Source: a virus
Virus record (IMG/VR): IMGVR_UViG_3300037541_000700
Coordinates: 1-44,219 of that record
Reading direction: 5' to 3' (one strand)
DNA: 44,219 nucleotides
The position numbers were made by a program, and so were the translations under genes. The notes below the pieces were generated by a model. The model worked only from the letters and a program-made list of their open reading frames with translations. It searched no databases and was not told the origin of the DNA. Shown one piece after another: positions 4,278 through 33,868 of this stretch (position 1 is its first letter; the number at the start of each line of letters is the position of its first letter).

Positions 4278-4292
4278 GATTTTTATATGCAC

Positions 4293-12109: not shown

Positions 12110-12125
12110 CAACCACTTAAAAATT

Positions 12126-12746: not shown

Positions 12747-12789
12747 TTTTTTGTTTACATTTATTTTGTAATTGCTTAGGAGTTTATAA

Positions 12790-14641: not shown

Positions 14642-14934
14642 ACCAGCCTATTCACGTAGTATTTGAGTGCATTGAGGCACTTGAACAACACCGGAGGGAA
14701 CAGGCTAATATTGAGGGACGGGTTCATGCAATCGGTTGGACGGGATTGTTTAACGGGTTCAAAAAAGACACTGACCCCAACATGGAGTTCATTGATTTGC
14801 TACCCTTTCCTGACGATATTAGAGGGGATACCCGCAAGATTAGCCAAGCAACGGAAAACATTGTTAAGGATATTATCAAAAACAATCGGTTGCCCGCTCC
14901 GGTTCTATCAGCTTTGAATCTGCTACTTTCTTGA
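14536..14934 (+). CDS. Tail assembly chaperone frameshift extension (gpT-like)
   Basis: A -1 frame segment of about 132 codons overlapping the end of the 13778-14641 gene by 106 bases. It reads VDWGSIYWRIQSYRVSDPRF, then VVFECIEALEQHRREQAN and LPFPDDIRG, and is clearly protein-like. It has no ATG or GTG start; the only TTG is at 14746, too late to include the conserved part. The -1 frame is closed by a TGA at 14533-14535, directly before the run GGGGG at 14536-14540. So the open region starts exactly at the candidate slip site G-GGG-GAG (14536-14542). A ribosome moving back one base there would make a fusion of about 385 residues. The site is not the classical X-XXY-YYZ in its last codon, so efficiency is uncertain. 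Confidence 0.65.
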   Translation, partial: GGAATSSSVDWGSIYWRIQSYRVSDPRFRDWDSFLDQPIHVVFECIEALEQHRREQANIEGRVHAIGWTGLFNGFKKDTDPNMEFIDLLPFPDDIRGDTRKISQATENIVKDIIKNNRLPAPVLSALNLLLS

Positions 14935-14968: not shown

Positions 14969-14987
14969 CTTTATAGGAGTTAATATT

Positions 14988-17900
14988 ATGAATTTAGGCG
15001 AATTAATTGTAGAGTTATCTGCTGATTCTTCTGAGCTAGAAAAGACTTTGGAACGGGCTAAGAAGAAGGCTTATGAAGCGGCTGTGGCAGTAGAAAAAAG
15101 CTTTGAAAATATCAATCTTAATGTTGGAGTGGACGATGATAGTTTAGTTGATTTAAATAAGCACTTAAATTTAAAAGTACAACATCTTAAAGAAGTTAAT
15201 AAATATTTTACTAATAATCCTATTGTTGTTAATGTTGATGACAAAGAATTAACTGATTTAAATAAGCACTTAAATTTAAAAGTACAACATCTTAAAGAAG
15301 TTAATAAATATTTTGATAACAATCCAATTAAAGTTAATACTGATACCAAAAGTCTTGATGAATTAGAAGAAAGATTAGGCGGGCTTTCTAGTAGAACTAT
15401 TACTATTACTGTTGAATCTGATTTAAGTAAGCAACTAGAAAAAAGTTTAGCTGATGCTGTGAAAAATGCTGTTAAAGAAGAAATGTCAGAACAATCTTCA
15501 GCGACGGCTCAACAACAAACAGCGAAAGAAGCTTCATCGCCAAATAAAGTTCAAAAAGTAGACATGGTAGTTAATCCAGGTAGAGCTATCATGGACGGGA
15601 TATTTGGAGGACTTGGTAAAGGTTTTACTGATGGGATTAATAGAGGTATTGAAGATGCTGTTGGTGTGGATATTCCAACTATGACTAGGATAACTAGTAA
15701 CATGATGTTGCGTTATTTTGGTGTAGGTAAAAAAGCGCAATCAGATCCTAAAAATGAACAGAAGCGAGTAGAAGCTATTCTTAAAGATGGTGTTGATACT
15801 TTTATTAAAGTACATGACGCTAACACCAAAAAATCTAATGTTACTCCTCAATCAAGTACAATTACTCAAAAAACCGTTGTTACAAATCAACCTGTAACAA
15901 CATTGACGGCTCCGTCCGTGATTAAATCTGCGCCTCAGCAAAAGACTACAGCGGCAACGTTACCTACTGCGATCGCAAGTCCAGTTACTACTGCACCAAC
16001 AACTTCACCGATAACAGTAGTCACAACTCCACGCAAAACTACTACAGTAGTTTCTTCTGTATCTACTGCAAATAGGGTGGGTAAAAAACAACGCAATTTA
16101 GGGTTAGACGACGATTTAGGTGTTGATTTTGAAGCTGCTGGTGGTTCAGCAGCTAGAGGGCTATTACGGTTTTTTGGTATAGGGAAGAAAGCACAATCTG
16201 ATCCTAAAGAAGAAAAAGCAAGAATAGAAGCAATTATCAAAGGTATGGTTGATGATTATTCCCAGCTTCAATCCTTTCAGGCTCCTGCTATCGTCACAAA
16301 TACATTAAGTGGTATCAGTAATACTTTTTTGTTAAGTATTGATGAGACGCTTGAAGGGTTAGGTCAACAGTCCAAAGTTGCTATATCTAAAGCTGTTCGC
16401 AAAAGTTCACAAGGGGTTTTAAATAAAGCTTCTACTCAAGTTCAAAAAGCTGCAAATGCTTTGTTTAATGAAATAGAAGGGCGAGGCGGTGAATCTTTTA
16501 CTCAAGTGGTGGGCAAACAATTAGCCACAGCAGCTAAAAGTGCCACTAATAATTTACTTAAAACTATACTTCCAAACACTTATTCAGTAGCTAAGAAATT
16601 TATATCTACGGGCGGAAATATTAGTCCTATTGGTAGCAATTCTTCTAATGTTGGCAACTCTGAAGCCAAGTCACCATCAGTGAGTAGTTCTTCTGTTGCT
16701 AGTTCTGTTCCTTTAATAAACTATACTCAACCTCTTCAAAATTCTTCTTTTGATGCACTTGGGCAAGCTTCCCTGAATTTAAGTAGCGCAGCTCAATCAT
16801 TAAACGAATTTGCTTTGCAGTCAAAAATTACAAATGTTCAGTCACCAAATTTAAATAGTACTGTTGAGCAAGTAAAAACAGAATTGCAAACAGCACTGGA
16901 TATTCCTGTAAATATTCCCAAAAAAACCAAAAAACCACAACCAGAACTTGAATTACTGCCTGTTGAAACCACTGCTAGTCAAGTACCACAGCAACTAAAA
17001 CAGCACTTTGAAGCCATAAAAACTAATACATTAAAAAATATTGATTTGTCTAAGCAGTATGCTGAGGCAACTGCTAGAGAGAACGGTGAAGAATTAGTAC
17101 CATTACAAATAGGAAAACCCAAAAAATCAGATGAAATAAAACTGCAAAAAGAAATATCTTTAAAGGGTGTTAGTGATTCATTCACGGGCATAAATCAATA
17201 TTTTAATGCAGAATATAAAAAATTAAAATCTGAGTTTGACATAGTTAAATTAACGGGAACTTCAGCAGAAATTAAAGCTACAAAAGAGAAAATTAAAAAA
17301 TTTATAGATAATACCAAGCTTGCAGTTGCAGACATAGATGCTATTGCCAAACAAGCCCAAGATGCTGGTTTTGACAAAACAATTAACAGCGATCTTAGTA
17401 AAGTTCATGCTGGGGGTAAGTCTCAACTCAAGTCCAGACAAACAAATGCCAAGGGATTGTTGGGCAAATTAAACACAGAAGAAAAAAGTATTTTTGATAA
17501 GCAGCTTACCCACTATGCGCCTTTAGCTCAACAATTAGGTATTGATATTGACGCAGGATTAGCAAAAGGTGTTAAGCATGGCTCTGATGGTGTGTCTGAT
17601 GTTGCTAGACAGATGCTTGACGACTTGATTGAAGCTGTTGAGAAAAAGATGAAAATCCAGTCTCCATCTTGGGTGATGTTTGAGATTGGGATGATGATAG
17701 CTTCTGGGTTGTTCTTTGGGATGCAAAAAGGGAACAGCAAAGTGTCCGAGGGTGCTAGGAAAATGGTGACAACCGTTAAATCTGCATTTGACCCTCTCAA
17801 TGATTTATCTAGCTTAGGCTTGGCGGGTACGTACATGATACCCAATTTAAGCGACATTAGCAACAAAGCCATGATTGCTATGTCCGCCACTAGCACGGGT

Positions 17901-20900
17901 TTAAATATGCTTGATAAGGTTGGGGAACACCACGCAGCTAACCCGGATCAGACTTTATTCCAAGCTACTTATGGGACAGCCAAAAACTTTGTTAAAGACG
18001 CGGTAACAGACAAGACCTTTACCCAACCCAGAGAAGCTGTTGACCATTTAGTTAATATCGCTAAATTTGGTACGGAACTCGTTACCCCACTGGGATTAAA
18101 AGCTTTCACTAATCCCATAGGGTCTGCTAACGACGGTGTAGCGGCTGCTTTCAGAACTATGGCGATCGCTAAGTCCTTAAAACAAGCACACCAAGATACT
18201 AAGCAACAAACACAACAAGACTCTACTCTGAATTACGCTAGTACATTTAAAAATGTACTTCCTCAATATTTAAAAGCAAATAAAATAGGACGCGCCGAAG
18301 CGTTAAAAATGTTTGGTGGTGGCTTAAAAGTCGTTCCTGATATGCACGGTAGTAACGACGCTAATCTGTATAACGCTGGGGCTGTGGCAATGGGAACAGC
18401 AGCTTCTCTGGGTAATGCAGCTATAAGTAAGTTTGCACCAGTAGCTAATTTTGTCCAGACGGGTAAGGATGTTGTCAAAGGATTAGAACAGGGTATACTC
18501 AAGAATGCTGGTATTGCTACTAATGCGATCGCTGGGCTGGGCAATTCAATCCAATCCCAGATTAAGCAGAATATGGGTATTCAGTCACCATCAAAGGTGA
18601 TGATTGCATTAGGGCTAATGATATCTTCAGGGTTAGCTATTGGTATTAGTTCCGGTGCAGTTAATGTGTCTGGTTCTATGAAATCAGTCATTGCTAATAT
18701 TAATTCTGGAGTGGAAAAATACAAAAATATTAAGCAGTTTCTTTCTCAAGGTTTAGATAAAAACGCTACAAACATAATATCTCAAACAATTCAGTCATTG
18801 CAAAAAGATTTTGGTGAAAATAGTTTTATTGGCGTTGAATTAGATAAAGTTAAAAAAACTTTGGAGGGTAGTATAAGTAAGATCAATGATTTACTTTTAT
18901 CAACGCCAATCGGAAAAAATTTGAATAAGTTATTTAATAATATAGAGCAAAAAATTACTGAATTTAATCAAAAACTAACCTCAAAAATTAAGAATATTTT
19001 TGAACAAAGCAATAATTTTAAAGAGGTTGGTACTGGTTTTATGTCTGTAATTGGACAAGGAATAACAAGTTCAGTTGATAAGCTTAAAATAAAAGTATTT
19101 GACACCTTTGAGACATTTTTCTCCAGCATGATGTCTCCATTTATTGATATTATTGCAAAAAGCGATAATTTTTCAGATTTTGGCATTAATTTATTTTCAT
19201 CTATTGGACAAAACATAATAAATTCCTTCTCTAAAATACAAAATCTAATTATTGGTTCTGGTGCAAAAATAAAAGATGTATACAAAAATGTCTTACTGTC
19301 AGTGCAATCGGCTATTTTAACCAGCAATAACTTTAAAGAATTTGCAGTTAATTTGTTTTCACCTATAGGAAAAAGTATAGCAAACTTGAATGGCAATTTG
19401 TTAAAAACGATTGCTACTATAGGTAAAAATATTCTAACATCTGCAAAGAATATATTTAAGAACTTTTTGCCAGATGTTAACAATGTTCCTAATCTGAAGT
19501 TAAATTCAACTTCAGATTCAGATATGGCAACTAACCAACAACCATTAGAAGCACCTAAGTTAACTACTGATTTATTGCCAGGACAATTAACTGGAAACAA
19601 TTATAATAAATTAGCTAATTTGGTTTTGCAGCTAACAGGAAAAACTGCAAGCCAACGACAAATACCTTTGCTAGAAAAAGAGACTGACCCCAGCATGGCC
19701 GGAATGGCTGGGGCTTATTACCGAGGAGATAATAAAATACGTATACACGCAAAAGATTATGAAGCATTAATTTCATCAGATGTTAGCAAGTTGTCTGACG
19801 ATCTTATTGATACAATATTGCATGAGATGTTTCACGCTATTCAATATGATTTTGGGAAAATTAAAACAGTACAGGAAGCATCTATGTTTTCTCCATCTCC
19901 TACTCTTAAAGAGATGGCTAAATGGAGTAGTGTTTCAGAGTTTAGTGCTGATAGACGCAGAGGTAAATATTCTCCTGAAGTTGTTAGCGCAACCTTTGAT
20001 TTGGAATTAGGTGCTTATAGTTTTGGAAGTAGATATACACAACAAGCTAAAGAAGCATTAAAAACAAATACTTCATTAAGTCAGTCTGTATCAGGATCTC
20101 CAAACCAAGTTGCCAAAGAAGTGCAACAACTACAACAAGCAGCGTTAAAGGTTGGAAAGTCTCATCATGATACTTTAGAAAAACTTCGGAAAATGAATCT
20201 ATCTGATGAAGCGTATAACAAATATCATTCAATGGCTAATATTGTCCGCGACAAAGGTATTAGTTTTGCTGAATCTTTAGACAGCGTTGAAAGCTTATCT
20301 CCTGAAGAAGTCCAACAAGCTATAGAAAAATTTAATAAAATTGTTGATTACATTAACAATATCCCTGAAACAGTTAACCAAAAACCATCTGAGATAAGTC
20401 GTGAAAGACAAAAATCAAAGTCAACACCTGTGGCTAAAGCAGTACAGTCTAGCTCATTAGAACAGAGTAAACTACCAAAAGAATTACAACAAACAATACT
20501 ATCGTTTAAGCAGACTTATCAAGATATTTCTGGTCAAATCAAAACGATGAATTTGCCAAACGATATTTACTCTCAAGCCCATAAAGCTATTGAAAAAGGT
20601 CATAATAAAGGTACTGAACTAATTGAAGTATTAAACAATATTCAAGACTTATCTCCTGAACAAGCTAATTCAGCTATGGAGAAATTTAATCAATATAGTG
20701 CTTACCTTTCTAATATTCCTACAACTATCAATAAGCTTATCAGCAAACCCGATGAAGTAGTTGCTCAAGAGCAGAAAGCACCTGTTACACCAAGGGCTAG
20801 TCAATCAATCCAGCAAAGTGAATTTTTCAGGAATATCAGACAGGTAGTAAGTGGAAGTGCTAACTTAAAGGAATTAGCTACTAATATCATATCCGCAATA

Positions 20901-23900
20901 GTACAAACTATTTTAAATCCAGTTCGCAAATATATATCATCTTTTATAGCAAAGGTAACTACAGGTTTCACGGATGTAACAGATCAACCAATTGTAGCTT
21001 TTAAACAGAATTTGCCTCAACAAGCCGGTCAAGCATTAACTAATACTTATAGAACTATTTCACCTATTCTACCCACGCAGTTTCAGGCAGTTGATACTGA
21101 GTCTCGCAAGTGGGAAACTGAGTTCAACAAAAAATTAAAACCCAACCAATCCCAAAACAAATTTAATCAATATATTCCTAGCATTCCTGTGAAGTCTACT
21201 GAAGTATTAACCAATGTTCACAGGGCTGTTTCGCCTATTTTACCTATACAATTCCAAGCAAATGATTTTGATTTCCATAAGCAGTTAAACAGCGGAAATA
21301 GTAATTTACTTAATAACCCTGCCGTAAATCAAGTAGTCAATACTGCCAAAAAACTCAAGTCTACAACTAGCTTCAAGGAAATAGGTTCTAATTTAATTTC
21401 TTCGTTAGGACAAGGATTTTTGTCTGTTAGCAGTGGTGTACTGGGGATAGTGACTGCGTTTGCTAAAGGCATACTAAGCGCGGTTAAAAAAGTATTTAGA
21501 ATAGCGTCACCATCAGGTGAAGGCATTGATACCGGGGAAAACTTAGCTGGCAGCATGGGAATTGGTATTAACAACCAAGCCCAGACCGCTGTTAATGCTG
21601 CTAGAAACATGGCAGAAAATGTTAGGAATGCGATCGCTGATCCTTGGGATACCCCTCTCCCAATGAACCTTGTGTTTAAGCAAGATTTAGATTTAGAAAA
21701 CCAGGCACAAGCCCATATTAAAGCCACCAAGGAACACTTCCAAAAACTCAAGATTCAAGATTTATTGTCTGACATTGGTGTTAACTTTGGTGCTGATTTT
21801 GGGCATGAAGGTATTACCAGTAATGTTCTTTCTAGCTCTGATTTACTTGGCTATTTAAGCAACAAATCAGCAAGTCTCACTCCACTTCAAAACACCGTTT
21901 ATAATAGACTTGTTGATGATTTTCAGGAACAAAGAACTCTAGCTGCCCATCATTTTGCGATCGCTCGCGCTGATGGAAACCCAGTAGATCCCGCTGTTCT
22001 CAGAGGTCTTGACGCGGGCTTTAATTCTATATTGTTAAGAATAGTTGAATTTTCAAAAAGATTGGGGATAAAAGGGCAGTCAATTGACAAATTGTTAGCA
22101 TCAAATCAGTCAGTTGTAAACACAGCAGCTTACCAGCCACCTAGATTTGTAGCACCTAAGACCCCAATACCAGAAAGACAGCCAGGACAAACAGACCAAG
22201 AATATAGTCAAGCTGTAAAACGCGCTTTAGCAGAAGATAACAATAATTATCGCAAAGCTAAAAACGCATACAATCGAATGATACTAGGCGTTAGCAATAC
22301 CCCAACACCACGGAGAACCCAACTACCAGCACTTCCTCCTGTTCCCGTTTATGCAAGAGAGATTATTGAACCTGTAACCAATGTACCACTAGTTCAGCGG
22401 ACACAAACTACTATTCCCCCAATCCCAGATCCTTGGAACGATTCTGTACAGCAACTAGTTAACACTGTCAGACAAACAACAAGAACTCAGTTTCTATTAC
22501 CTCCTGCTAGAGAACGCTTAAACATTAACTCGTTTGTACAAACTCAGTCTAATCTACAGAGATTAGCTAAAGAAATTGTTGCTCAACAACCGATGACGCA
22601 ACTATCAAGACCCCAGCCACCAACAATACAGCGTACTATTCCCCCAATCCCAGATCCTTGGAACGATTCTGTACAGCAATTAGTTAACACTGTCAGACAA
22701 ACAACAAGAACTCAGTTTTTGTTACCACCTGCTAGAGAACGCTTAAACATTAACTCATTTGTACAAACTCAGTCTAATCTACAAAGATTAGCTAAAGAAA
22801 TTGTTGCTCAACAACCGATGACGCAACTATCAAGACCCCAGCCACCAACAATACAGCGTACTAGCCCAATAATTTTACCAAGGAACTTTGTACCCAATCC
22901 CAACGCACAGATACTTTCCAGTAAAAACTTTGTACTCAATCCAAATGCACAGATAATCTCATCTCAAAAGTTTACGCCTAACCCAAATGCACAAATAGTC
23001 TCATCTCAAAAGTTTACGCCTAAGCCTGATGCACAATTGATTTTACCAGTCGTCCAAGGGTTGTCGCCAGCCATAAGATCAACTCATTCACTAGCACAAA
23101 ATAGTATAAGTGCTTTAATTGCTGCTAACAAACAAGTACAAGCTACTATTGCCGGGAATAAGGTAACGGTCTCTTCTCGTTTTGCACCCATACCAGATCC
23201 TTGGACTACACCACCTTCGCAAACAGTCAAACAAATGGCTGGGCAATATGGTCCAATACCTGACTCTTGGCTAACATCACCGCGTTCTACCCAAGCGTTT
23301 AAACAAGTCGGTAAATTACTTATTGGACAAATACCTGCTACACTTTCATCTACCGTACCATCCCTTATCCCCCAACCTGCTGGTACTACTGCGCCAAAAT
23401 ATGTTTTCCCGCCTCAAACTCTTGGAAGTACCGTACCAGCATACACATTTCCTGTTAACCCAACTCCAAAACCACCTATAGCACCTGTACCACCCATACC
23501 ACCAACATTATTAGATCAATACTTAAATTTAGGTACTGATTTGGTGACAAATATTTTTAATGCCGTTAGTGCAAGCATCCGCCAAAGCACTTTATCTGGT
23601 TATGCTTCATTGGGTCAAGTCATGCGGAATGCCGTTAACGCAGCTTTGTTTTCTTTAGCGGATACGCTTAAACAACCACTGCATCAAGCTTTATTGTCTC
23701 AAACCAGGAGTATATTGCCTTGGTTCTTAAAATTTATACCTCGCAGTTTTCAACTACTTCCTAAATTAAGTTTTGCCATACCTTTTGTTGGTGGTATGGT
23801 ATTAAGGTTTGGTAATTCAATTGTTAAGAATTTATTAGAAAACAATATTTTGAAAGAAGGTGGTTTTTTAACAAACTTATTAAGTTCTATTACTAGGGTA

Positions 23901-26900
23901 GATTTATCAGCTTTGTCGGGAACTAAAACTGCTGGTGTTACAGGGTTTTTACATAATATCGTAAGTCCATTACCTCTGCTAGTCGGTTCACGGTTTAATC
24001 CATTGCTGTCACTAGGAACATTAAGCGCAAGCCCGCTTTATGATGCTTTTAGTGGTATCTTGGGGCTAGATAAGTCCGTGAAACCCAACCCCAAAAAACA
24101 AGCACCTACTATTGAACAAGTATTACAAAACCAGACTAAAATCAACAGAGAAAAAGCTCTCTTGCGTGATGTCAAGGAAGTTGGCACTAGCACTAATATC
24201 AGTACAGGAGTAGGACAAAATCTTACTGCTTATCCAGATGCCCAAAGAACCAAAGCAGAAGAATCATTAAAACGTGCTGTTGAGTCAGGTAAAGCAATAC
24301 CAAAATTAGATGAACTTACCAGGAAAGCATTAAGAGAGCGTGGTGTACGTAGTTTTGTTCGTAATCAAATGGATTCTGCTGAGTTGCTTGCTGAACGGGA
24401 AAATATACTTAAGAATCCTCTTAACGCTACCAGTAAAGAACGTGACTTTCTCTTGTACATAGCAGACATAAAAAAACTTAATGCTACTACTGAAAAAGAA
24501 CGAGATAAAAGGATTATCTCTATCCTTAAAGAACGGGGGAAAAGTGATCAGGATATTGAAAATATACGAAATTCAGGTGCATACGCACTACTCGATGTTG
24601 GTGATGATTTAATAAAGAACCTGCCTACAATTACAAAACAGCCTACTGCTACACAAACAGTTCAGCCACGCACTTCTAGTGCCAGTATTGCTAGTAAAGA
24701 ACTAGTAGAAAACTTGGGAAATACTTTACTAAACAGTGTTTTAAATAATCTTGATGTTCCTGTCATTCCTAAGTCTGTAATTCAAAAATTGATTGGCAAG
24801 AAAATGGGAGAGAGATCAGCAACAATAGCAGATGCTATTAATGCGTTTGGAACTGAAAAAAGTAAAGCTGAACAATTATTAACACGGAATCTTGAATCAG
24901 GTAACACAAAAAGATTAGATGGACTTACAAAGCAAATACTGAGAGAGCGTGGTGTCACTAAATCTGTTCGTGATGCTATGACACCGGAACAATTAGCCGC
25001 AGCCCGTGAAAAAATAACTAAATCCCCAATTGATTTAACCGCTAGAGAGCGTAAACTTCTGAAGTTTATGGGTGATTTTGAATCTCATGCAGCAACGATG
25101 GGAAATGATGTAGCCACAAGAAAACGGGATGCTATGGTAATGTCTGTTTTGCAAGAGCGCGGCATGAGTCGGGATCAAAGGAAGCAGGTTCAACAATCAC
25201 AGGGTGGACAAGGTTTAAGCAGTTTTGCTGACAACTTGAGAGACAATCCCCGTACAGGCGGATTTATGGGTAGACTCACAGAAGCTTATGCTAGTAACGA
25301 CCAGGATGCTATGAAAGGACTGGTTAAAGAAGGGTTAAGAAAAACTGGGATGTCTGCTAAACAGATTGATGCTATTGACCCCAAGCTTTTAGACACAGCC
25401 ACCGCAGGATTGATGACCACGTTGAGCGGACTACAGGCTAAGTTCAGGGAAAAAGGCTTTGACATGGGTAAAGCCTTAGCCAAGGGCTTAAAAGACTCAA
25501 TGGTGAATCTAGCTAACGCCAAAGATGATTTAGAATACAACGCCAAAAAAGTCATGGGACAAGCTAATTTTGGTGATTCTGTAGGTTTAATATTCCGTCG
25601 TATGTTCAGGGGTACAGCAGCGACTCAAGGTCAATTTGCAGAAATGTACAACCAGATGGGTGCAGGGGTGAAAAAAGCCATGTTTGGAGGTTCTAAAGAA
25701 GGGGATGAGATGTTCCCTAATGTCCTTCAATTCTTCGGTTCAATCGCTACAACCCTTGCACCAATTACCACTATGATAGGTGCAATTACGCCATTATTAT
25801 TACCTTTAGCCCCAATTATTACAGGTATAGGCATGGCTGTAAACATGGTTGCACCCCATGTAGCTAAACTCATAGATGGTATTCAAAGGGTAGAAGTATT
25901 ACAAAGAAGATTTAAGTTTTTAGGCGGGTCAAAAGAAGGAGGTATAGCTGAGTTTAAATATGCAAAAGATATTGCTAACAAATTAAATGTACCTTCAGAA
26001 GTAGCTGCTAACTCCTATTCTCAACTGGCGATCGCAGCTAAAGACAGCAAGATGGAAGGTCAAGGGGTTAAAGATCTATTTGAAGGTATTACGTCATCTT
26101 TAAGCGCGTTAGGTATCAACGGTCAGGATGCTAGTTTGGTATTTATGGCATATACGCAGATATTAGCTAAAGGTAAGCTGTCTATGGAAGAGCTTAGGCA
26201 GCAGTTAGGTGAGAAGTTCCCACCTGCTATGGCTACGTTCGCTAGAGCCATGGGTGTGACCGTTCCTGAAATGAATGAACTGGTAGCTTCTGGTGGCATT
26301 TTATCCCAAGATATTTTACCTAAAGTAGCTAAAGTATTAAAAGAAGATTATGGTAGTGCTGCTTCCGATCAAGCTGGCGGACTGGTAGTTGCGCTCAACA
26401 AACTAGGTAATGTGGGCTTTGAGATTACAACAATATTTACTGATAAACTTGGTGGCACACTAGCATTTTTTGTTAACACTTTTGCTAATATTTTAGGCGT
26501 ACTTAGCGGTGCATTAAAAGAATTAATACCATTAGTCAAATCCTTTATGATTGGCTTTGCAGCCACAATTTCCATTGGACTAACAATCATTCTTTCTAAA
26601 TTTGGACCTTTTGTAGTTGCAATGAAGAGTTTACAAAACTTCTTATTGGCTACTTTTTCCGCTATTACTACCAATATGATGCCAATGGTTATTGGTATTG
26701 TCTCAGACGTTGCTGATGGTTGGCTAGGTGCAGAAAAGAACTTGATCGACAATATGTTTCAAGGTATAAATAACATGATTGTCGTTGTGTTCAGCACTAT
26801 AGACACTGCCATGCGCTCCATGAGCGACCATCAAGTTTCTTTTGGTACAGTCTTTGGTGGCTTAATCCAAGGGGCAGAACAAGCTGGTAGTATCATAGAC

Positions 26901-29900
26901 TGGCTTAAAGGGGTGTTTGCAGGTTTCTTTAAAATTCTTCCTTCTGGGATTGTAGAAATACTAGCTATAGTATTTATGCTAGAGCAGGGAACAGGTTTGC
27001 TGGTTATGGCTTTGTGGCCTGCTATCAAAGGACTGTGGGGTGGCATTACTGGAATATTTGGTGCTACAGCAAAAGCGTTTTATGGGGTAATGGGTTCACT
27101 TAAAGCTGTTGTTGAATTAATGATGACATCTTCAGCGGTTGCTTCAAACGCAACTAATAATGTTGCAAAAAGTGGCGTAAGAAGCATGGCAATAGTTCAA
27201 GGTGCATTAGGATTTTTGAGTAAAGCACTGTTACATTTTGGACTAGCTTACGCTGTTCTGATGTTTTCTAAAGGTGATTTTAGCGACCCATTGCGAGAAT
27301 CAATTAATAAATCTACCGCAGACATTAATAAACATTTAAATCAAGTCAGATTAAACATCAACCAAACCACCGAAGCGTTTAATAAAGCCACTAAATCTGT
27401 AGAGAAACTTGGTAATACGATCACCCATGCTTTACCGGCTAAAGGAGTGCAATTAGACGTTAGAAGTCTTTGGGGTGGTGGTGATTGGAAATGGGACGAC
27501 GCAGTACGGGAAACTAACGCGAAATACAGACAAGGTGGTTCAGGTCCAAGCGCAATGGATGTTATAGGAACTGGTGCTTTATATGCCGGAGGTGCTGGGT
27601 ATGCCGCTGCTGCCGGATCTAAAGCAATAAAAGCAATTGTAGACCTTGCAGTAAAAACAGCCCCAATCTTAGCCTCAAATGCAGCATTAGGGTCGGCGCC
27701 TGGACCACGCATGGCTGTTCCTCTTTTCGGCAGACTTGCTACAGCAATAGCTCCTGTGGTTGCCATAATGGGTCCTTGGGGTTTAGCGATCGCAGGTCTT
27801 ATAGCTACTATTGTTGCAGTTGGTGTGGCATTAGATGCGTTTGCCCCTAAGATTACTGAAGCGCAATTAAACACAGAAGAAAAAGGTGGGTTGCCAGAAG
27901 AAATTAAACAGATTATTAACGCTAAAAAAGCTGGTGAAAGGCTAGATGCTTCATCTATGCAAGTTATTAAGCTTTACAAAGATCAGCAACTCAGCAACGA
28001 AAGATTAAAAGAGTTTATGGCTTCAATTGGTTTAGACGGAAAAAACCCTTATAGCTTTGTTGCCCGACCAGTTGTACCCATGACACAGGAACAGAAGGAA
28101 GAATTTGAAGATACTGACCCTGTAAAAAACATTACTAAAAGTATAGAAGACAAAAAAGCGTCGCTTCAGGAACTAGAAAAAAATGCAGGAACTACAGAAA
28201 CAGAAAAGTCAAAAGCAAGATCCAAACAAGGGTATAAAACAGTCCAAGAAGAGCTTACTAAATTGGAGAAAGATAAGCTGTTAATGCAATTATCTTTTAT
28301 GGCTAATTATGACAATAAGTCAAGAATGGATGCAATTGATGAGCAGATTAAAGCGAAAGAAAAAGAGATAGCAAATCATCGTTCTACACACCAATATATT
28401 GATACTAGAGTAGGTAGACGTGACCCTGAGAATCGAGCAAAAATAGCAGTAAGACAAGGATTAACAAAAGAGTTAGAGAAACTACAAAAAGAAAAAGCCG
28501 CTTTACAAATAAATATTAACGCTTCAGCGCAACGCAGAGTTAATTATGATGCAATCAAGAAAATTGATGTTGATATGCAAAAAACCGCTGCTGAATTTGT
28601 TGAAGCTAGTAATCAATTAGCAGTCAGCCCTAATGACAAGCTACGTAATAAAGCAGGGTTAGCAAAAGAACGTATCGCGCAGCTACAAAAACAAAGACAG
28701 AAATTAGTTGATGAGTTTGGCGATCCTACACCAGCGATTAAGCAAATGCTGGAAGTAACCAAGAGGGAAATAGAAAAAACTTTATCTGATTCAAGCATCA
28801 CTTCTCAGCAAAGGAAGGTGACAGTACAGCAATTAAGGGAAACACAGGAGACACTTGAAAAGTCATTAGCAGAAGCGGAAAAGTTCAGCATTGCACCAAT
28901 AGCTGACACAATGTACACTCAAGCGGTCGCAGCACTTAAAGACAATGAAGTTAAGTCCAATGTAGACATCAGTAAAAATAAGATTGTCTCTAACCAGGCA
29001 CAAGCTAGACTTTACGGAACTACCTTGACATCTCAGCAAATTGCGCCCGGCTTATCTGACAGACAGATTGCAGATTTGACTTTTCAGCAAAAAGTATTAG
29101 AGCGTTCTTTGAAAATCAAGGAAGATAACTTATTGAAACTCCAAAACGCTGCTGCACAATCTCCAACCAACTTATCTCAAATACAAGAGGAAATTACCAA
29201 GCTTCAGCAGGAAATAGCGAAGGATAGGGAACAGGTAAGCCAAAATACTTTAGAGATTGTTAAAGCGCAACGAGAAGCTAGACAAGCGTTAATTGACCAG
29301 ACTAAACAGGTAGCGGAATACTACCGGACATCTTTAAGGGAGTCCCAAGCTGCTGCTATTGAGTTTGATAAAGCTACCAATAACATTAAGTCTCAACAGT
29401 TCGCTACTAAGCTGAAACAGGCTTTGGTTGGGGCTGGTAATAATATCTTTACCAACTTTATTGACAGTGTGATTGGGTTGTTCCAACAACTTACTGAAAT
29501 TGAGAACTTACGTTTAGACAGGCAAAAACAGAAGTTAGATTATGAGAACAATATACAGGACATCCTGATTAAAGTCACGGAAATGCAGCGTAGTCTACCG
29601 GGTAAGATTGTACCTTTTAGTCTTGATCAGATTCGTAACTTTGACAAGGAACTAGGAACTGTTAACAGCAGTGTGTCAGGTATCAACAAAGAAATTAACA
29701 GTGTTACAAAAAATTTAGGTGTAAGTGCAGTCAATTCTACTATACAACTTAATAAGCAATTAAAAGAGGTTCTTAGCACCGTAGAAAAGATAAATAAAGT
29801 AACTAGTAATCAGCAGCTACAACCACCAAACAACAGTGGTGTTTCTGGTGTTTCTCCAGTACCGATATCTCAGAGAACAAAAATACCAGTAACACCTGAA

Positions 29901-32900
29901 GATGAGCAAATTTGGCGTGAGTTTGTTGCACCACAATCTGGTATTAAAAGCGGTACATCTAGTCTACCCACATCCACTCCGGTAGCTAATGCGCCTAAAG
30001 AGGTGTTGGTGGCTGGGCTTATGTCAGATATGGGCTATAGCTACTATTCTCAAGTCACTAAATTAAAACCAAAGCTACCGGACAATGCTTTTTTGTCACC
30101 CATTGTGGGTAAGAACTTATCTAACATCATTAATACTAAATACCGACCTGAAGATTCCTTTGGGAAGACCGGAGGGATTCGGTTTAATCAGAATATTGGG
30201 GTTGGTAAAAATACCAATATTCAATCTTCTGTAACTGGCATGGCTAGGCTTGTTGGTAATACTTTAGAGATTATCAAACAAACCAAGGGTGGCACTATTA
30301 AGCTGATTTATGAAGGGTTGAATATTCCCAGTGTTAAAAAGAATTTGAAACTCAATGACGGTGGTTCAGTTAATATCAATGCTGGGCAGTTAATTGGTAC
30401 TTTAGCAGGGAATAACTTTAAGTTCCGCACAGAAGTCAATTCCTCTAATATGGACCCGTTAAAGGTTATTAGGGATATTGAATATAAAAGATTAAATGCT
30501 TTTCAGAAAGCGGCTAGGTTTTTTGATCAGCCAAATAACACCGTAACAAATTTAGGTTTATTGCCAGAGCCAAAGCCGGTAGCAATATCTTCTACACCGT
30601 CTACACCACCTGTTAACCGGGCTATTAATTGGTTTAAAACAGAAGTCAAAAAATTTGTGAGAAAAAATGCTCCTGAAGAGGTTAAGCGAGTCATCCGTAA
30701 TACAAAGAATTTTGTTGATAATATTCCACCAATAATCCCTACGTATAATCAGAATACTAACAGCTACAATCCTGGTATTTTGGATATTTTAATAGGCAAT
30801 AATTCAAAACCAAAACCAAATCCAAAACCAAAACCAAATCCAAAACCAAATCCAAACAATAGTACTGGTAGTAGTAGAAATAACCAAAGCACTGGTAACA
30901 AGCCGACAACAACTAACCAAGGTAAAAGCGGTAGTGGAAATAACCAAGGTACTGGTAACAAGCCGACAACAACTAACCAAGGTAAAAGCGGTAGTGGAAA
31001 TAACCAAAGCACTGGTAACAAGCCGACACCAACTAACCAAGGTAATATATCAAATTTGTCTGGTGCATTTCCACAGCCTAGCACTAGTGGGCTAACTACA
31101 GTAAGTAATACTGGAAACCAAATACCGCCAAATTTATCTGGTGCATTTCCACAGCCTAGCACTAGTGGGCTAACTACAGTAAGTAATACTGGAAACCAAA
31201 GTAATAAAATCAACAACCAGCAGACTAAACAAAATTTGACTGGACAACTACCACAAATACCACAGACAAGGCAACCCGTGGTAATTCCACCAGGCACTGA
31301 TCCTTACACTAGATCACAATTGCAGAATCAGCCAAACCCTGATAAGTTACAAGGAGGTGTTGGAGAAGCTGGTAAGCTCGGTGTGGAAGCTGCTAAAAAA
31401 AGAGACGCTGCGGCTAGGTTGCAAAGGCAACAAGAAATAAGCGCAAAGCTGGTAGAGTTCCAAAGAAATTTATCCAATCTATTAAGAGATACCAATAAAG
31501 GTATCAGAGATGAATCACTACAGGCTGCACAAGATATTAGTAATGCTTCTGAGTATATCCAAGGGCTGTTAAATCCCAATGCTTCTGATAAGGAAAAATT
31601 TGCTACTGACTTCCAAAAACTAAAGAATGAATACCAAGCAAGGATTAATGAACAACAGAATATTATTGAGTCTACAAGAGCGCCTCTTGCTGAATTAGCA
31701 AGGGTTGATGAGCTAATTGCTGCTGCTCAGAGAGAAGGTATAGATGCGTCAGGGCTAAAAAGATTAAGAGACGAAGTGTACAGAGTCGTTAAAGCAAGAC
31801 AACAAACAGCGATCGCACTCCGCAATATGTACACCAAAAACAAGCAAGCGGTTTTTGATAAGTATGTAAGCAGATTTAAAGAGGAGCAATCAGATAAAGA
31901 TGCTGATAGAAAAGCTGCTCTCTTGGGTGTAAATATCAGTCAATTAAAACTACGATTGGAAGAACTGAGAGGAATTCAAGCAATTGATCCTTTGAACCCT
32001 GAATTACTCAAGATACCTGACCTTGAAGCAAATATAGCTCAATTAGAATTAACTCAAACAACCCTCCAAAAAATAGCTGCACTTAGACGCGAGTGGCGAC
32101 AATCAGGTGGTAAAAACATGGGTAAAGATGTTTATGACAAAAGAATGCAAGATATTAAGAATACTGTCACAAAACAGACAGCAATCATTGAAAGAAAGCG
32201 TCGGACTGACAATATATTAGCTTATGTTAATCGTGAACTTGGATTGATAGATAAAGGGGCTGCTGAGAGAGAACCAATTACCAAGGGTTTACAGCTTGAT
32301 AATAGTCTGTTTGCTGCTAGGAATAAGAACGGTTTAGTTAATATTATTAACTTTGAAAATGAAGCATTAATTAAACAAAAAGACTTGATGGACTCTTACA
32401 GAAAAACTAGCTTAGAGACTCAGCGCGACTTTAAATTATCTTCTGATGATAGAATCACAAAACGCCTAAGAAATGCTATGAATCTCCAAAAAGAATTAAA
32501 TGTTTTGAAAATAGAAACTGAGTACCAAAAAGCGACTGGCGAGATTAAAAATAGACAGGTGACTGTAGATGTGGAAGTGAGATTATCTGATTCTGCTAAG
32601 GCTATTTTTGAAAGCAAGAGTACCATTAAAAAGAATTTGGGATTGGAGTTGGCAGGGGAAAGATTAGACCGTCAGAACGCAATCACGACTCAAGAGAATG
32701 AGTATAAGCGCAAACAGAATGAAACTAGTCAATTTATTCTGGACAATAACCTGACTGAGTCACAGGCTTATGTACTTAGAAAGAATAATGAAGTAGAGAA
32801 TGATTTAAAGCTACGTACCATTAAATCCCAGTTCTCAGAGTTTGCACAACTAATTAAGTCCTTTGTATCCGGATTTAAGAGTTCTTTTAAAGAGTTTCTA

Positions 32901-33674
32901 CTCAGCACAGAAGACACAGGCACGGCATTAGTAAACCTGCTTAAAGGTATAGGTAAGTCTGTACTGGATACTTTGGCAGAAATAGCATCTAAGCGTGTAA
33001 CAGACTTGCTTTTTGGTTGGATGGGCGGGGCTGGGCTTAACCCGGCAACGGAATTATCTTTTGCTGCTCAACAACTTACTCAAGCAGCGATCGCACTACA
33101 GACAGCGGCGGGTGCTTCAGCCTTAGACTTGGGTATCTTTGATGGATTTGCTGGTTTTGGTGATATTGCTTCTTTTATCCCTACGGGTATGGAGTTCTTA
33201 GATCCTTCTACTTTTGGGGCTGCTGACTTTGGTTCAGCTATTTTATCAGGATTTGCTAAGGGTGGGATGATTGATAAAGATACTCTTGGGAAGATTCAGA
33301 ATTTTGCCAACGGGGGAATTGTGGGAACGATGAACAAGGAACGGGCTATGACAGGGAGGACACCGCACTTGGTGGTCGCTTCTGAAGGTGAGCGCATCCT
33401 TAATCACAAAGAAACTGCTATTTGGAATAGGTTGCAATCAGGTATTTCTGGATTTGCTGATGGTGGTATTGTCGGTGGTGGCTCTGGGGATATTGCTTCT
33501 AAGATTGGTAGCACTACAACGGTAAATGTGCCTGTAAGTGTGTCAGTCAATGAAGGTTCTGATGTAGATGGGGCTAGATTGTCACAGACTGTACAGGCTC
33601 TTGTCAGTGATGGAATTAGGCGGGAGATGCGTCCCGGTGGCTCTATTCGCAGGGGTAATCCTTACGGTCGGTAA
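14988..33674 (+). CDS. Giant tail tape measure protein, 6228 aa
   Basis: One uninterrupted frame with a good ribosome site (ATAGGAGTTAAT). Tape measure proteins set tail length and reach the host membrane first. Residues 1-60 are helical. Motifs of the type IQSPS-x-VM-x-x-x-G-x-x-I-x-SG (about 888, 1203) and a related SPSGEGI segment (about 2175) occur in many tape measures. A metalloprotease-like domain (about 1525-1690) has HEMFH at 1612-1616, with Glu1651 (EFSAD) or Glu1673 (LELGAY) as third zinc ligand. Two 75-residue repeats span 2476-2625. Two copies of an RERGV domain lie near 3115 and 3310. The region about 3633-3795 matches the conserved tape-measure domain (TIGR02675 type), here in mid-protein. 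Hydrophobic segments lie at about 3574-3630, 3840-3880, 3983-4025, 4075-4095 and 4246-4288. Coiled coils occupy about 4380-4840 and 5460-5970. The C-terminus (FANGGIVG, HLVVASEGERIL, FADGGIVGG) is the classical ending. Confidence 0.93.
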   Translation: MNLGELIVELSADSSELEKTLERAKKKAYEAAVAVEKSFENINLNVGVDDDSLVDLNKHLNLKVQHLKEVNKYFTNNPIVVNVDDKELTDLNKHLNLKVQHLKEVNKYFDNNPIKVNTDTKSLDELEERLGGLSSRTITITVESDLSKQLEKSLADAVKNAVKEEMSEQSSATAQQQTAKEASSPNKVQKVDMVVNPGRAIMDGIFGGLGKGFTDGINRGIEDAVGVDIPTMTRITSNMMLRYFGVGKKAQSDPKNEQKRVEAILKDGVDTFIKVHDANTKKSNVTPQSSTITQKTVVTNQPVTTLTAPSVIKSAPQQKTTAATLPTAIASPVTTAPTTSPITVVTTPRKTTTVVSSVSTANRVGKKQRNLGLDDDLGVDFEAAGGSAARGLLRFFGIGKKAQSDPKEEKARIEAIIKGMVDDYSQLQSFQAPAIVTNTLSGISNTFLLSIDETLEGLGQQSKVAISKAVRKSSQGVLNKASTQVQKAANALFNEIEGRGGESFTQVVGKQLATAAKSATNNLLKTILPNTYSVAKKFISTGGNISPIGSNSSNVGNSEAKSPSVSSSSVASSVPLINYTQPLQNSSFDALGQASLNLSSAAQSLNEFALQSKITNVQSPNLNSTVEQVKTELQTALDIPVNIPKKTKKPQPELELLPVETTASQVPQQLKQHFEAIKTNTLKNIDLSKQYAEATARENGEELVPLQIGKPKKSDEIKLQKEISLKGVSDSFTGINQYFNAEYKKLKSEFDIVKLTGTSAEIKATKEKIKKFIDNTKLAVADIDAIAKQAQDAGFDKTINSDLSKVHAGGKSQLKSRQTNAKGLLGKLNTEEKSIFDKQLTHYAPLAQQLGIDIDAGLAKGVKHGSDGVSDVARQMLDDLIEAVEKKMKIQSPSWVMFEIGMMIASGLFFGMQKGNSKVSEGARKMVTTVKSAFDPLNDLSSLGLAGTYMIPNLSDISNKAMIAMSATSTGLNMLDKVGEHHAANPDQTLFQATYGTAKNFVKDAVTDKTFTQPREAVDHLVNIAKFGTELVTPLGLKAFTNPIGSANDGVAAAFRTMAIAKSLKQAHQDTKQQTQQDSTLNYASTFKNVLPQYLKANKIGRAEALKMFGGGLKVVPDMHGSNDANLYNAGAVAMGTAASLGNAAISKFAPVANFVQTGKDVVKGLEQGILKNAGIATNAIAGLGNSIQSQIKQNMGIQSPSKVMIALGLMISSGLAIGISSGAVNVSGSMKSVIANINSGVEKYKNIKQFLSQGLDKNATNIISQTIQSLQKDFGENSFIGVELDKVKKTLEGSISKINDLLLSTPIGKNLNKLFNNIEQKITEFNQKLTSKIKNIFEQSNNFKEVGTGFMSVIGQGITSSVDKLKIKVFDTFETFFSSMMSPFIDIIAKSDNFSDFGINLFSSIGQNIINSFSKIQNLIIGSGAKIKDVYKNVLLSVQSAILTSNNFKEFAVNLFSPIGKSIANLNGNLLKTIATIGKNILTSAKNIFKNFLPDVNNVPNLKLNSTSDSDMATNQQPLEAPKLTTDLLPGQLTGNNYNKLANLVLQLTGKTASQRQIPLLEKETDPSMAGMAGAYYRGDNKIRIHAKDYEALISSDVSKLSDDLIDTILHEMFHAIQYDFGKIKTVQEASMFSPSPTLKEMAKWSSVSEFSADRRRGKYSPEVVSATFDLELGAYSFGSRYTQQAKEALKTNTSLSQSVSGSPNQVAKEVQQLQQAALKVGKSHHDTLEKLRKMNLSDEAYNKYHSMANIVRDKGISFAESLDSVESLSPEEVQQAIEKFNKIVDYINNIPETVNQKPSEISRERQKSKSTPVAKAVQSSSLEQSKLPKELQQTILSFKQTYQDISGQIKTMNLPNDIYSQAHKAIEKGHNKGTELIEVLNNIQDLSPEQANSAMEKFNQYSAYLSNIPTTINKLISKPDEVVAQEQKAPVTPRASQSIQQSEFFRNIRQVVSGSANLKELATNIISAIVQTILNPVRKYISSFIAKVTTGFTDVTDQPIVAFKQNLPQQAGQALTNTYRTISPILPTQFQAVDTESRKWETEFNKKLKPNQSQNKFNQYIPSIPVKSTEVLTNVHRAVSPILPIQFQANDFDFHKQLNSGNSNLLNNPAVNQVVNTAKKLKSTTSFKEIGSNLISSLGQGFLSVSSGVLGIVTAFAKGILSAVKKVFRIASPSGEGIDTGENLAGSMGIGINNQAQTAVNAARNMAENVRNAIADPWDTPLPMNLVFKQDLDLENQAQAHIKATKEHFQKLKIQDLLSDIGVNFGADFGHEGITSNVLSSSDLLGYLSNKSASLTPLQNTVYNRLVDDFQEQRTLAAHHFAIARADGNPVDPAVLRGLDAGFNSILLRIVEFSKRLGIKGQSIDKLLASNQSVVNTAAYQPPRFVAPKTPIPERQPGQTDQEYSQAVKRALAEDNNNYRKAKNAYNRMILGVSNTPTPRRTQLPALPPVPVYAREIIEPVTNVPLVQRTQTTIPPIPDPWNDSVQQLVNTVRQTTRTQFLLPPARERLNINSFVQTQSNLQRLAKEIVAQQPMTQLSRPQPPTIQRTIPPIPDPWNDSVQQLVNTVRQTTRTQFLLPPARERLNINSFVQTQSNLQRLAKEIVAQQPMTQLSRPQPPTIQRTSPIILPRNFVPNPNAQILSSKNFVLNPNAQIISSQKFTPNPNAQIVSSQKFTPKPDAQLILPVVQGLSPAIRSTHSLAQNSISALIAANKQVQATIAGNKVTVSSRFAPIPDPWTTPPSQTVKQMAGQYGPIPDSWLTSPRSTQAFKQVGKLLIGQIPATLSSTVPSLIPQPAGTTAPKYVFPPQTLGSTVPAYTFPVNPTPKPPIAPVPPIPPTLLDQYLNLGTDLVTNIFNAVSASIRQSTLSGYASLGQVMRNAVNAALFSLADTLKQPLHQALLSQTRSILPWFLKFIPRSFQLLPKLSFAIPFVGGMVLRFGNSIVKNLLENNILKEGGFLTNLLSSITRVDLSALSGTKTAGVTGFLHNIVSPLPLLVGSRFNPLLSLGTLSASPLYDAFSGILGLDKSVKPNPKKQAPTIEQVLQNQTKINREKALLRDVKEVGTSTNISTGVGQNLTAYPDAQRTKAEESLKRAVESGKAIPKLDELTRKALRERGVRSFVRNQMDSAELLAERENILKNPLNATSKERDFLLYIADIKKLNATTEKERDKRIISILKERGKSDQDIENIRNSGAYALLDVGDDLIKNLPTITKQPTATQTVQPRTSSASIASKELVENLGNTLLNSVLNNLDVPVIPKSVIQKLIGKKMGERSATIADAINAFGTEKSKAEQLLTRNLESGNTKRLDGLTKQILRERGVTKSVRDAMTPEQLAAAREKITKSPIDLTARERKLLKFMGDFESHAATMGNDVATRKRDAMVMSVLQERGMSRDQRKQVQQSQGGQGLSSFADNLRDNPRTGGFMGRLTEAYASNDQDAMKGLVKEGLRKTGMSAKQIDAIDPKLLDTATAGLMTTLSGLQAKFREKGFDMGKALAKGLKDSMVNLANAKDDLEYNAKKVMGQANFGDSVGLIFRRMFRGTAATQGQFAEMYNQMGAGVKKAMFGGSKEGDEMFPNVLQFFGSIATTLAPITTMIGAITPLLLPLAPIITGIGMAVNMVAPHVAKLIDGIQRVEVLQRRFKFLGGSKEGGIAEFKYAKDIANKLNVPSEVAANSYSQLAIAAKDSKMEGQGVKDLFEGITSSLSALGINGQDASLVFMAYTQILAKGKLSMEELRQQLGEKFPPAMATFARAMGVTVPEMNELVASGGILSQDILPKVAKVLKEDYGSAASDQAGGLVVALNKLGNVGFEITTIFTDKLGGTLAFFVNTFANILGVLSGALKELIPLVKSFMIGFAATISIGLTIILSKFGPFVVAMKSLQNFLLATFSAITTNMMPMVIGIVSDVADGWLGAEKNLIDNMFQGINNMIVVVFSTIDTAMRSMSDHQVSFGTVFGGLIQGAEQAGSIIDWLKGVFAGFFKILPSGIVEILAIVFMLEQGTGLLVMALWPAIKGLWGGITGIFGATAKAFYGVMGSLKAVVELMMTSSAVASNATNNVAKSGVRSMAIVQGALGFLSKALLHFGLAYAVLMFSKGDFSDPLRESINKSTADINKHLNQVRLNINQTTEAFNKATKSVEKLGNTITHALPAKGVQLDVRSLWGGGDWKWDDAVRETNAKYRQGGSGPSAMDVIGTGALYAGGAGYAAAAGSKAIKAIVDLAVKTAPILASNAALGSAPGPRMAVPLFGRLATAIAPVVAIMGPWGLAIAGLIATIVAVGVALDAFAPKITEAQLNTEEKGGLPEEIKQIINAKKAGERLDASSMQVIKLYKDQQLSNERLKEFMASIGLDGKNPYSFVARPVVPMTQEQKEEFEDTDPVKNITKSIEDKKASLQELEKNAGTTETEKSKARSKQGYKTVQEELTKLEKDKLLMQLSFMANYDNKSRMDAIDEQIKAKEKEIANHRSTHQYIDTRVGRRDPENRAKIAVRQGLTKELEKLQKEKAALQININASAQRRVNYDAIKKIDVDMQKTAAEFVEASNQLAVSPNDKLRNKAGLAKERIAQLQKQRQKLVDEFGDPTPAIKQMLEVTKREIEKTLSDSSITSQQRKVTVQQLRETQETLEKSLAEAEKFSIAPIADTMYTQAVAALKDNEVKSNVDISKNKIVSNQAQARLYGTTLTSQQIAPGLSDRQIADLTFQQKVLERSLKIKEDNLLKLQNAAAQSPTNLSQIQEEITKLQQEIAKDREQVSQNTLEIVKAQREARQALIDQTKQVAEYYRTSLRESQAAAIEFDKATNNIKSQQFATKLKQALVGAGNNIFTNFIDSVIGLFQQLTEIENLRLDRQKQKLDYENNIQDILIKVTEMQRSLPGKIVPFSLDQIRNFDKELGTVNSSVSGINKEINSVTKNLGVSAVNSTIQLNKQLKEVLSTVEKINKVTSNQQLQPPNNSGVSGVSPVPISQRTKIPVTPEDEQIWREFVAPQSGIKSGTSSLPTSTPVANAPKEVLVAGLMSDMGYSYYSQVTKLKPKLPDNAFLSPIVGKNLSNIINTKYRPEDSFGKTGGIRFNQNIGVGKNTNIQSSVTGMARLVGNTLEIIKQTKGGTIKLIYEGLNIPSVKKNLKLNDGGSVNINAGQLIGTLAGNNFKFRTEVNSSNMDPLKVIRDIEYKRLNAFQKAARFFDQPNNTVTNLGLLPEPKPVAISSTPSTPPVNRAINWFKTEVKKFVRKNAPEEVKRVIRNTKNFVDNIPPIIPTYNQNTNSYNPGILDILIGNNSKPKPNPKPKPNPKPNPNNSTGSSRNNQSTGNKPTTTNQGKSGSGNNQGTGNKPTTTNQGKSGSGNNQSTGNKPTPTNQGNISNLSGAFPQPSTSGLTTVSNTGNQIPPNLSGAFPQPSTSGLTTVSNTGNQSNKINNQQTKQNLTGQLPQIPQTRQPVVIPPGTDPYTRSQLQNQPNPDKLQGGVGEAGKLGVEAAKKRDAAARLQRQQEISAKLVEFQRNLSNLLRDTNKGIRDESLQAAQDISNASEYIQGLLNPNASDKEKFATDFQKLKNEYQARINEQQNIIESTRAPLAELARVDELIAAAQREGIDASGLKRLRDEVYRVVKARQQTAIALRNMYTKNKQAVFDKYVSRFKEEQSDKDADRKAALLGVNISQLKLRLEELRGIQAIDPLNPELLKIPDLEANIAQLELTQTTLQKIAALRREWRQSGGKNMGKDVYDKRMQDIKNTVTKQTAIIERKRRTDNILAYVNRELGLIDKGAAEREPITKGLQLDNSLFAARNKNGLVNIINFENEALIKQKDLMDSYRKTSLETQRDFKLSSDDRITKRLRNAMNLQKELNVLKIETEYQKATGEIKNRQVTVDVEVRLSDSAKAIFESKSTIKKNLGLELAGERLDRQNAITTQENEYKRKQNETSQFILDNNLTESQAYVLRKNNEVENDLKLRTIKSQFSEFAQLIKSFVSGFKSSFKEFLLSTEDTGTALVNLLKGIGKSVLDTLAEIASKRVTDLLFGWMGGAGLNPATELSFAAQQLTQAAIALQTAAGASALDLGIFDGFAGFGDIASFIPTGMEFLDPSTFGAADFGSAILSGFAKGGMIDKDTLGKIQNFANGGIVGTMNKERAMTGRTPHLVVASEGERILNHKETAIWNRLQSGISGFADGGIVGGGSGDIASKIGSTTTVNVPVSVSVNEGSDVDGARLSQTVQALVSDGIRREMRPGGSIRRGNPYGR
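15150..15314 (+). repeat. Exact 60-bp duplication in the tape measure N-terminus
   Basis: 15150-15209 is repeated base for base at 15255-15314 (offset 105 bases, 35 residues). It encodes DLNKHLNLKVQHLKEVNKYF twice. Identity at the nucleotide level shows a recent duplication that keeps the frame. Confidence 0.9.
22413..22862 (+). repeat. Tandem 225-bp repeat in the tape measure gene
   Basis: Two adjacent 75-codon units (22413-22637 and 22638-22862) starting IPPIPDPWNDSVQQLV and ending PPTIQRT, nearly identical in DNA. Four shorter units of about 15 residues of the type NPNAQIxSSxxF follow (to about 23045). Each unit adds length without changing frame, so gain or loss would change tail length stepwise. 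Confidence 0.9.
30807..31200 (+). repeat. Low-complexity and tandem repeats in the tape measure gene
   Basis: A Pro-Lys-Asn run (PKPNPKPKPNPKPNPN) is followed by three units of about 20 residues (NNQSTGNKPTTTNQGKSGSG type). Then come two copies of a 23-residue unit with LSGAFPQPSTSGLTT, nearly identical in DNA (about 31053-31121 and 31131-31199). This is probably an unstructured linker. Confidence 0.85.
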
Positions 33675-33859: not shown

Positions 33860-33868
33860 AATTGGTGG

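Follow-up and report, generated by a model that had tools for sequence, protein, structure and literature searches.

Giant tape measure proteins and the closest relatives of the locus

The Thermus phages P23-45 and P74-26 possess giant tape measure proteins, with 5,002 residues in P23-45 according to excerpts of PMC10770324 and 5006 aa in P74-26 (a gene of 15021 nt), in agreement with the figure of about 5000 residues given in the original prediction for the locus described here. Both contain an N-terminal RNA polymerase with a DFDGD motif, together with a metallopeptidase domain, reported by a depositor's note and by the paper, and membrane parts, reported by the paper. The tail of P23-45 exceeds 800 nm in the available passages of PMC9022992, which amounts to at least 0.16 nm per residue. 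Another long tape measure is that of Tsamsa, for which the accessible parts of PMC3903500 give 3123 aa, a tail of 440 nm and two protein bands of 280 and 100 kDa; thus, processing or breakage does occur in a long tape measure. A literature search, with subscription journals mostly outside its scope, returned among the matches listed no tape measure longer than that of P23-45 and no tail longer than that of P74-26, as far as the excerpts of these sources extend. The closest relatives by sequence are two isolated phages, CrV-01T (MH636380) from Cylindrospermopsis raciborskii and Cr-LKS4, whose tape measures match a 333-residue core query at 47% and 39% identity, respectively; the available passages of two papers using Cr-LKS4 give no tail length, and no measured tail was met for any other member of the family in the sources consulted.

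The locus studied here lies in a 44,219-base virus record (IMG/VR IMGVR_UViG_3300037541_000700), the whole of which we refer to as the window. Its 6228-residue tape measure resembles gp064 of CrV-01T (4416 aa) in a core that is 43% identical, in the N-terminus MNLGELIVELS, in two SPS-type motifs before the core and in the about 1,980 residues that gp064 has after it; however, gp064 is 1,812 residues shorter, has about 1,901 residues before the core as against 3,561 in the window, and contains no HExxH motif. Like the P23-45 and P74-26 proteins it is a giant tape measure, about 1,220 residues longer than either, where longer refers throughout to the tape measures named in this work; unlike them it lacks the DFDGD motif, and a BLASTP search with its core at E 1e-3 does not hit the tape measure of P74-26. 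Because this RNA polymerase motif is absent, the window's protein is, judging from its sequence, not a fusion of the P23-45 type. The sole DxDxD match, DKDAD at 5636, lies after the core, and a P23-45-like RNA polymerase was rejected as a candidate. The Tsamsa protein is likened to it by size, not by sequence, being half as long, and the measured tail of that phage is also long (PMC3903500, excerpts). At the other extreme, a Bacteroides propionicifaciens locus (L064, 1427 aa) has the same core, 29% identical over 221 residues, but unlike in the window this core begins near the N-terminus and is preceded by no extension.

Identification and integrity of the gene

The tape measure gene (14988..33674, plus strand) is the largest frame of the window, opening with an ATG and running through 6228 aa in one frame. 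An AGGAG ribosome binding site (14975..14979, plus strand) stands 8 bases 5' of the ATG, and the motif FADGGIVGG (33453..33479, plus strand; residues 6156-6164) can be read near the C-terminus of the translation, so that the frame, the good ribosome site and the typical C-terminal end originally described are all confirmed. Pfam TMP_3 matches residues 3633-3806 (25884..26405, plus strand; E 1.6e-25, above cut-off), close to the residue 3630 proposed for the core, and the HMM search suggested as a check places TIGR02675 inside it at residues 3705-3776 (E 4e-13, above the curated cut-off). Given these two matches, the protein can be identified from its sequence as a tape measure of the TMP_3/TIGR02675 type; PHROG tape measure families match it as well. 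Its gene sits between candidate major tail protein and chaperone frames and a gpJ-like tip gene, from which a portal gene on the other strand separates it. Matches to the gas vesicle protein GvpC (E 0.14) and to ribosomal L11 (22.4 bits, cut-off 32.9), and one to POLR3C on the related protein L122 (20.4 bits, cut-off 30), were taken as chance.

The window is a single metagenomic record and its tape measure gene contains tandem repeats, features that would suit an assembly artefact, be it a chimera or a repeat expansion. However, two other assemblies agree with it across the gene: L004 (IMGVR_UViG_3300042946_001086) is 100% identical to the gene over bases 4582-18687, and L061 (IMGVR_UViG_3300043803_002147) differs from it by a single mismatch over bases 1-13264, both alignments being ungapped, so that by their overlap the whole gene, including a 225-base tandem duplication, is covered at 99.99-100% with no indel. 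The two carry different IMG metagenome numbers and may share samples or reads with the window. The related record G005 also speaks against an artefact, encoding a complete protein of 6123 aa with 98.0% identity over residues 1-3000, as does dN/dS, which against six relatives is 0.08-0.60 in every segment with a computable value both before and after the core (segments with <60 aligned codons were skipped and one segment gave no value). On the agreement of L004 and L061 we reject the artefact, which is refuted unless these assemblies share the same reads and which we regard as extremely improbable; the same agreement indicates that the frame is intact and not the product of a frameshift error.

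A family of tape measures that varies mostly before the core

Beyond CrV-01T and Cr-LKS4, more distant core matches occur in 1,104 further phage records. In IMG/VR, 22 loci were found with the window sequence alone, all of them among the 55 recovered by a core alignment, and the remainder includes short, distant tape measures. Eighteen complete members could be compared: L123 (6256 aa), L122 (6235), the window (6228), G005 (6123), G018 (5846), G007 (5772), L124 (5555), G013 (5050), G011 (4505), L087 (4453), G015 (4448), CrV-01T (4416), G016 (4203), L097 (4155), L090 (4023), G019 (4004), L099 (3761) and Cr-LKS4 (2987). This count drops G008, G014, G017, G020, L085, L086 and L088 as duplicates by record or equal length, L095 (whose frame starts internally relative to that of L097), frames running off a contig end, and loci that are short core relatives or whose longest frame has no core match (L064, L103-L119); it retains both L122 and L123, which are 93-98% alike in DNA. 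The window protein thus ranks third among the 18, four of which exceed 6,100 aa: the giant size originally claimed stands insofar as the protein is longer than those of P23-45 and P74-26, but it is not alone, given G005, L122 and L123.

With the core taken as window residues 3561-4100, the part after it is nearly constant across these 18 members (mean 1969, sd 155, range 1515-2174 residues), and the part before it has a mean of 2392, an sd of 933 and a range of 936-3833 residues. Regressed on total length, the before-core part has a slope of 0.914 (r 0.99) and the after-core part one of 0.090 (r 0.59; n=18); these correlations are partly built in, the two being parts of the same total, and it is the sixfold difference in spread that constitutes the real result. 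For the distant members, the core was placed by local alignments showing 29-45% identity. Since all 17 other complete members likewise have 936-3833 residues before the core, the long extension is, as judged by these alignments, a family trait and the part whose size varies most; the statement that some 3600 residues were added before the core in this phage was therefore an overstatement. In the short core relatives, including the Bacteroides locus, the core lies near the N-terminus.

Comparison among close relatives shows the gene to be a mosaic. The DNA of G005 matches that of the window at 97-98% over the first 10 kb and at 82% up to 13.6 kb, after which there is no DNA-level match. The G011 protein is 98.3% identical over residues 5451-6228 and 81.6% in the core, and its before-core part is 1,659 residues shorter than that of the window, without any direction of change being implied. 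L122 and L123 form a divergent branch; the extension of L122 is Asn/Ile/Leu-rich with 1.5% proline, and the sequence that it shares with that of the window is limited to two stretches, 105 and 62 residues long. Given how little extension sequence is shared, the two branches appear to have reached near-equal length with mostly different sequence.

Modules and a peptidase-like cassette in the extension

Examination of the extension reveals, after two N-terminal repeats of 35 residues (15129..15338, plus strand; residues 48-117), three related modules on the plus strand: A (17529..17972; residues 848-995; IQSPSWVM motif; phrog_1686, E 3.2e-12), B (18132..18797; residues 1049-1270; IQSPSKVM motif; phrog_1686, E 1.2e-18) and C (21054..21740; residues 2023-2251; IASPS motif; phrog_5493, E 5e-11). 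Their best matches fall in the C-terminal part of the tape measure families phrog_1686 and phrog_5493, and some weaker ones mid-way in other families. In local alignments against 100 shuffles the modules resemble one another with z 13.6 (A-B), 9.5 (A-C) and 9.5 (B-C), as against at most 0.9 with two control segments. On this sequence likeness, the extension is read as containing, in triplicate, a module found at the end of other tape measures. An AlphaFold model of module B from ten sequences is helical, with a mean pLDDT (39.4) too poor to decide.

Two of the modules contain predicted hydrophobic segments, at residues 1202-1225 in B and 2145-2163 in C. Together with the position of similar modules near the end of other tape measures, this could suggest that the modules preceding the core insert into membranes or form part of a channel, helping DNA through the host envelope or a thick sheath around the filament, tail length being a by-product. 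However, the remaining predicted hydrophobic segments are located at the core or shortly after it (3590-4290), and the modules account for only about 600 of the 3,560 residues; we accordingly consider such a role improbable.

Between modules B and C lies a candidate zincin-like metallopeptidase domain (19518..20177, plus strand; residues 1511-1730). Zincin metallopeptidases of the SprT/M48-like kind are characterized by an HExxH motif and a later Glu within a defined fold, and the candidate displays HEMFH at 1612 followed by SEFSADRR. Its Pfam match to SprT-like (E 0.028) is below cut-off, a search of solved structures returned only a haemoglobin match (E 0.49), and no match was found in phages or plasmids at E 0.01; a single-sequence AlphaFold model has a mean pLDDT of 40.5, too poor for a fold search. 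In IMG/VR this part matches only records of the window's own tape measure family. The HExxH cassette is present in six records, namely the window, G001, G002, G005, G010 and G018, and is absent from the other tape measures scanned, several of them incomplete; G001 and G002 agree with the window gene itself at 99.99-100%. A search of IMG/VR recovered the same cassette records and a contig end from the metagenome of G001. Over residues 1511-1730, G005, G010 and G018 are 95.9-98.2% identical to the window. In G018 the cassette is 95.9% identical, whereas its flanks are much less so (51% over residues 1301-1500 and 69% over 1831-1990), which suggests that the cassette has been kept or exchanged as a unit between the tape measures of relatives.

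This cassette, with its HEMFH...SEFSADRR motif and its conservation in G018 well above that of its flanks, raises the question of whether the extension might be cargo and not ruler, delivering folded enzymes or membrane parts to the host, with a shorter helical part setting a tail of ~400-750 nm. A precedent is the P23-45 tape measure, which has an active RNA polymerase in residues 327-1124 (PMC10770324, excerpts). Yet the DFDGD motif of that polymerase is missing here, the zincin candidate has only the sub-threshold SprT-like match and no relative of solved structure, and no convincing enzyme match occurs in the rest of the extension. Moreover, P23-45 has a tail of >800 nm for its 5002 residues by the published passages, so that its cargo seems not to shorten that tail. 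We therefore view cargo as an unlikely account of the extension, even if the folded peptidase-like domain may itself sit outside the ruler.

Two further parts of the protein depart in composition. The first is a proline-rich part (22188..23387, plus strand; residues 2401-2800; 12.8% Pro) with the 225-base tandem duplication at 22409-22863; the second, after the core, includes a low-complexity linker rich in Asn, Pro, Lys and Gly with tandem repeats (30801..31200, plus strand), and at residues 5201-5400 the seven hydrophobic residues counted make up 17%. Given the proline content of the former and the low hydrophobic share of the latter, residues 2401-2800 and 5201-5400 are unlikely to be helical.

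Predicted tail length and the proposed mechanism

A calibration of tail length was obtained from published values, in each case as given in excerpts of the paper cited: fEg-Aba01, with a tape measure of 1195 aa and a tail of 156 nm (PMC7354433); Pam2, with a tail of about 300 nm (PMC9382816) and a gene that we measured at 1918 aa; Mic1, with 400 nm (PMC7156551) and a measured 2572 aa; and Tsamsa. The single ratios of these four range over 0.131-0.156 nm per residue, with a slope of 0.147 nm per residue through the origin and 0.150 when free, predicting 918-926 nm for 6228 residues, or 813-974 nm over the single ratios. Addition of fLi-Aba02 and fLi-Aba03, with tails of 136 and 142 nm (PMC7354433), gives 0.144 nm per residue through the origin and predicts 895-973 nm from two fits, or 709-974 nm over single ratios; here 1195 residues are taken for all three A. 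baumannii phages, a figure that the passages of that paper give without saying that all share it. Both calibrations are in line with the rule of 0.15 nm per residue on which the original prediction relied. As the calibration phages are few and all much shorter, their use at 6228 residues is an extrapolation far outside the lengths that they cover. If the Pro/Asn-rich parts and the zincin candidate are not counted, the estimate drops to 742 nm, and if only the core onward counts, to 393 nm. We infer a tail of about 0.9 micrometre (0.7-1.0) for the window's phage, as a value predicted from sequence alone.

In light of these observations, we propose, with a probability of roughly two in three, that this tape measure serves as the ruler in a relative of CrV-01T with a long tail of the siphovirus type, and that its N-terminal modules would lengthen the tail to ~0.9 micrometre. 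Several copies of the tape measure would be coated by chaperones encoded by the overlapping G/GT-type frames described below, the C-terminal part would join the tip complex, and tail tube rings would stack along the protein as far as its N-terminus, each N-terminal module thereby adding tail length at ~0.15 nm per residue.

Giant tape measures in phages with very long tails are of an already known kind; what appears new, as far as seen, is the size, a family tuned mostly before the core, the repeated use of end modules and the exchange of a peptidase-like cassette. Few phages underlie the ruler rule, and this family provides complete tape measures of 2987-6256 residues with a near-constant tip-side part. 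We tentatively suggest, at a little under even odds, that this probably cyanobacterial phage group tunes its tail more than twofold (predicted 0.44-0.92 micrometre), mostly before the core and with the tip-side ~2,000 residues near-constant, and that two branches have reached ~6,230 residues by mostly different material, namely three copies of the end module and an exchangeable peptidase-like cassette in the window and a proline-poor, Asn/Ile/Leu-rich extension in L122/L123, their tails being among the longest of viruses and perhaps the longest. If true, the family would form a natural series in which the ruler rule can be tested: CrV-01T and Cr-LKS4 are isolated phages, in which tail and protein length can be measured within one family, and for which the calibration predicts tails of about 650 and 440 nm, respectively. 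It further reveals that most of the additional length is held before the core, and that an enzyme-like cassette could be exchangeable inside a ruler.

Neighbouring genes, a candidate frameshift site and the host

Frameshifted tail assembly chaperones of the gpG/gpGT type precede the tape measure in many phages. Upstream of the window's tape measure gene, a frame at 13778..14641 (plus strand), considered a gpG-like tail assembly chaperone candidate by position and overlap only and without a PHROG match, is overlapped by a -1 frame at 14536..14934 (plus strand), a candidate gpT-like extension. The latter opens exactly at a G-run, GGGGGAG (14536..14542, plus strand), which is a candidate -1 slip site; no canonical XXXYYYZ heptamer was found at these overlapping frames. 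GGGGGAG is conserved in 33/33 locus rows that reach it among 36 aligned, the 33 coming from 17 records including the window, and is kept down to 75% identity despite indels close by. Among ten loci examined, the overlapping -1 arrangement is present in three (L015, L017, L019) and not found in L020 and L023; CrV-01T, Cr-LKS4 and L090 have a different arrangement before the tape measure, and L010 and L022 start too near it for the overlap to be judged. The overlap within 13778-14934 and the G-run resemble, as a candidate, the programmed -1 frameshift of tail assembly chaperones.

Other genes of the window include the terminase large subunit (2805..4304, minus strand; PF03237, E 7.4e-30), head proteins (7085-8395 and 9351-10529), a major tail protein candidate (12790..13551, plus strand) with a weak match to phrog_820 (E 0.0036), a Mu-type portal protein (34202..36097, minus strand; PF06074, E 7.1e-24) and a gpJ-like tail tip protein of the Phage-tail_3 type (37511..39337, plus strand; PF24801, E 1.6e-14; PF13550, E 3.2e-8). 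The major tail protein candidate has relatives in the phage collection only in CrV-01T and Cr-LKS4, at 38-39%. From the relatedness to CrV-01T, together with Cr-LKS4, the host is probably a filamentous cyanobacterium. When genomes were scanned with the core alignment, one Bacteroides locus was the only match, and no cyanobacterial genome with this tape measure was found. The earlier suggestion of imaging particles induced from the host presupposed a prophage; the record itself, a virus fragment, names no host sequence, and the tyrosine integrase domain PF00589 has a match in 0/10 records searched, fragments included.

Several repeats were observed elsewhere in the window. A 77-base repeat of 2.4 copies (33681-33863) starts seven bases past the tape measure stop and is whole, among the loci compared, only in L004/L065 (one contig); the stretch after the tape measure gene has chance-level short matches in two plasmids, one from Calothrix (E 0.2) and one from a member of the Aphanizomenonaceae (E 0.02). 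Downstream of the tip gene, a 126-base unit is repeated 6.8 times (41925-42793) within an ORF at 41798-42859, which perhaps codes for a receptor-binding or fibre protein with 42-residue repeats. Beside the terminase gene, an ORF at 2429-2824 includes a 57-base tandem repeat of 2.5 copies (2521-2686). In Pam2 (L132, ON014754) the gene beside the terminase, Pam2_03, is labelled by the depositor as a botulinum neurotoxin, which, judged from the gene's place, is probably a wrong annotation.
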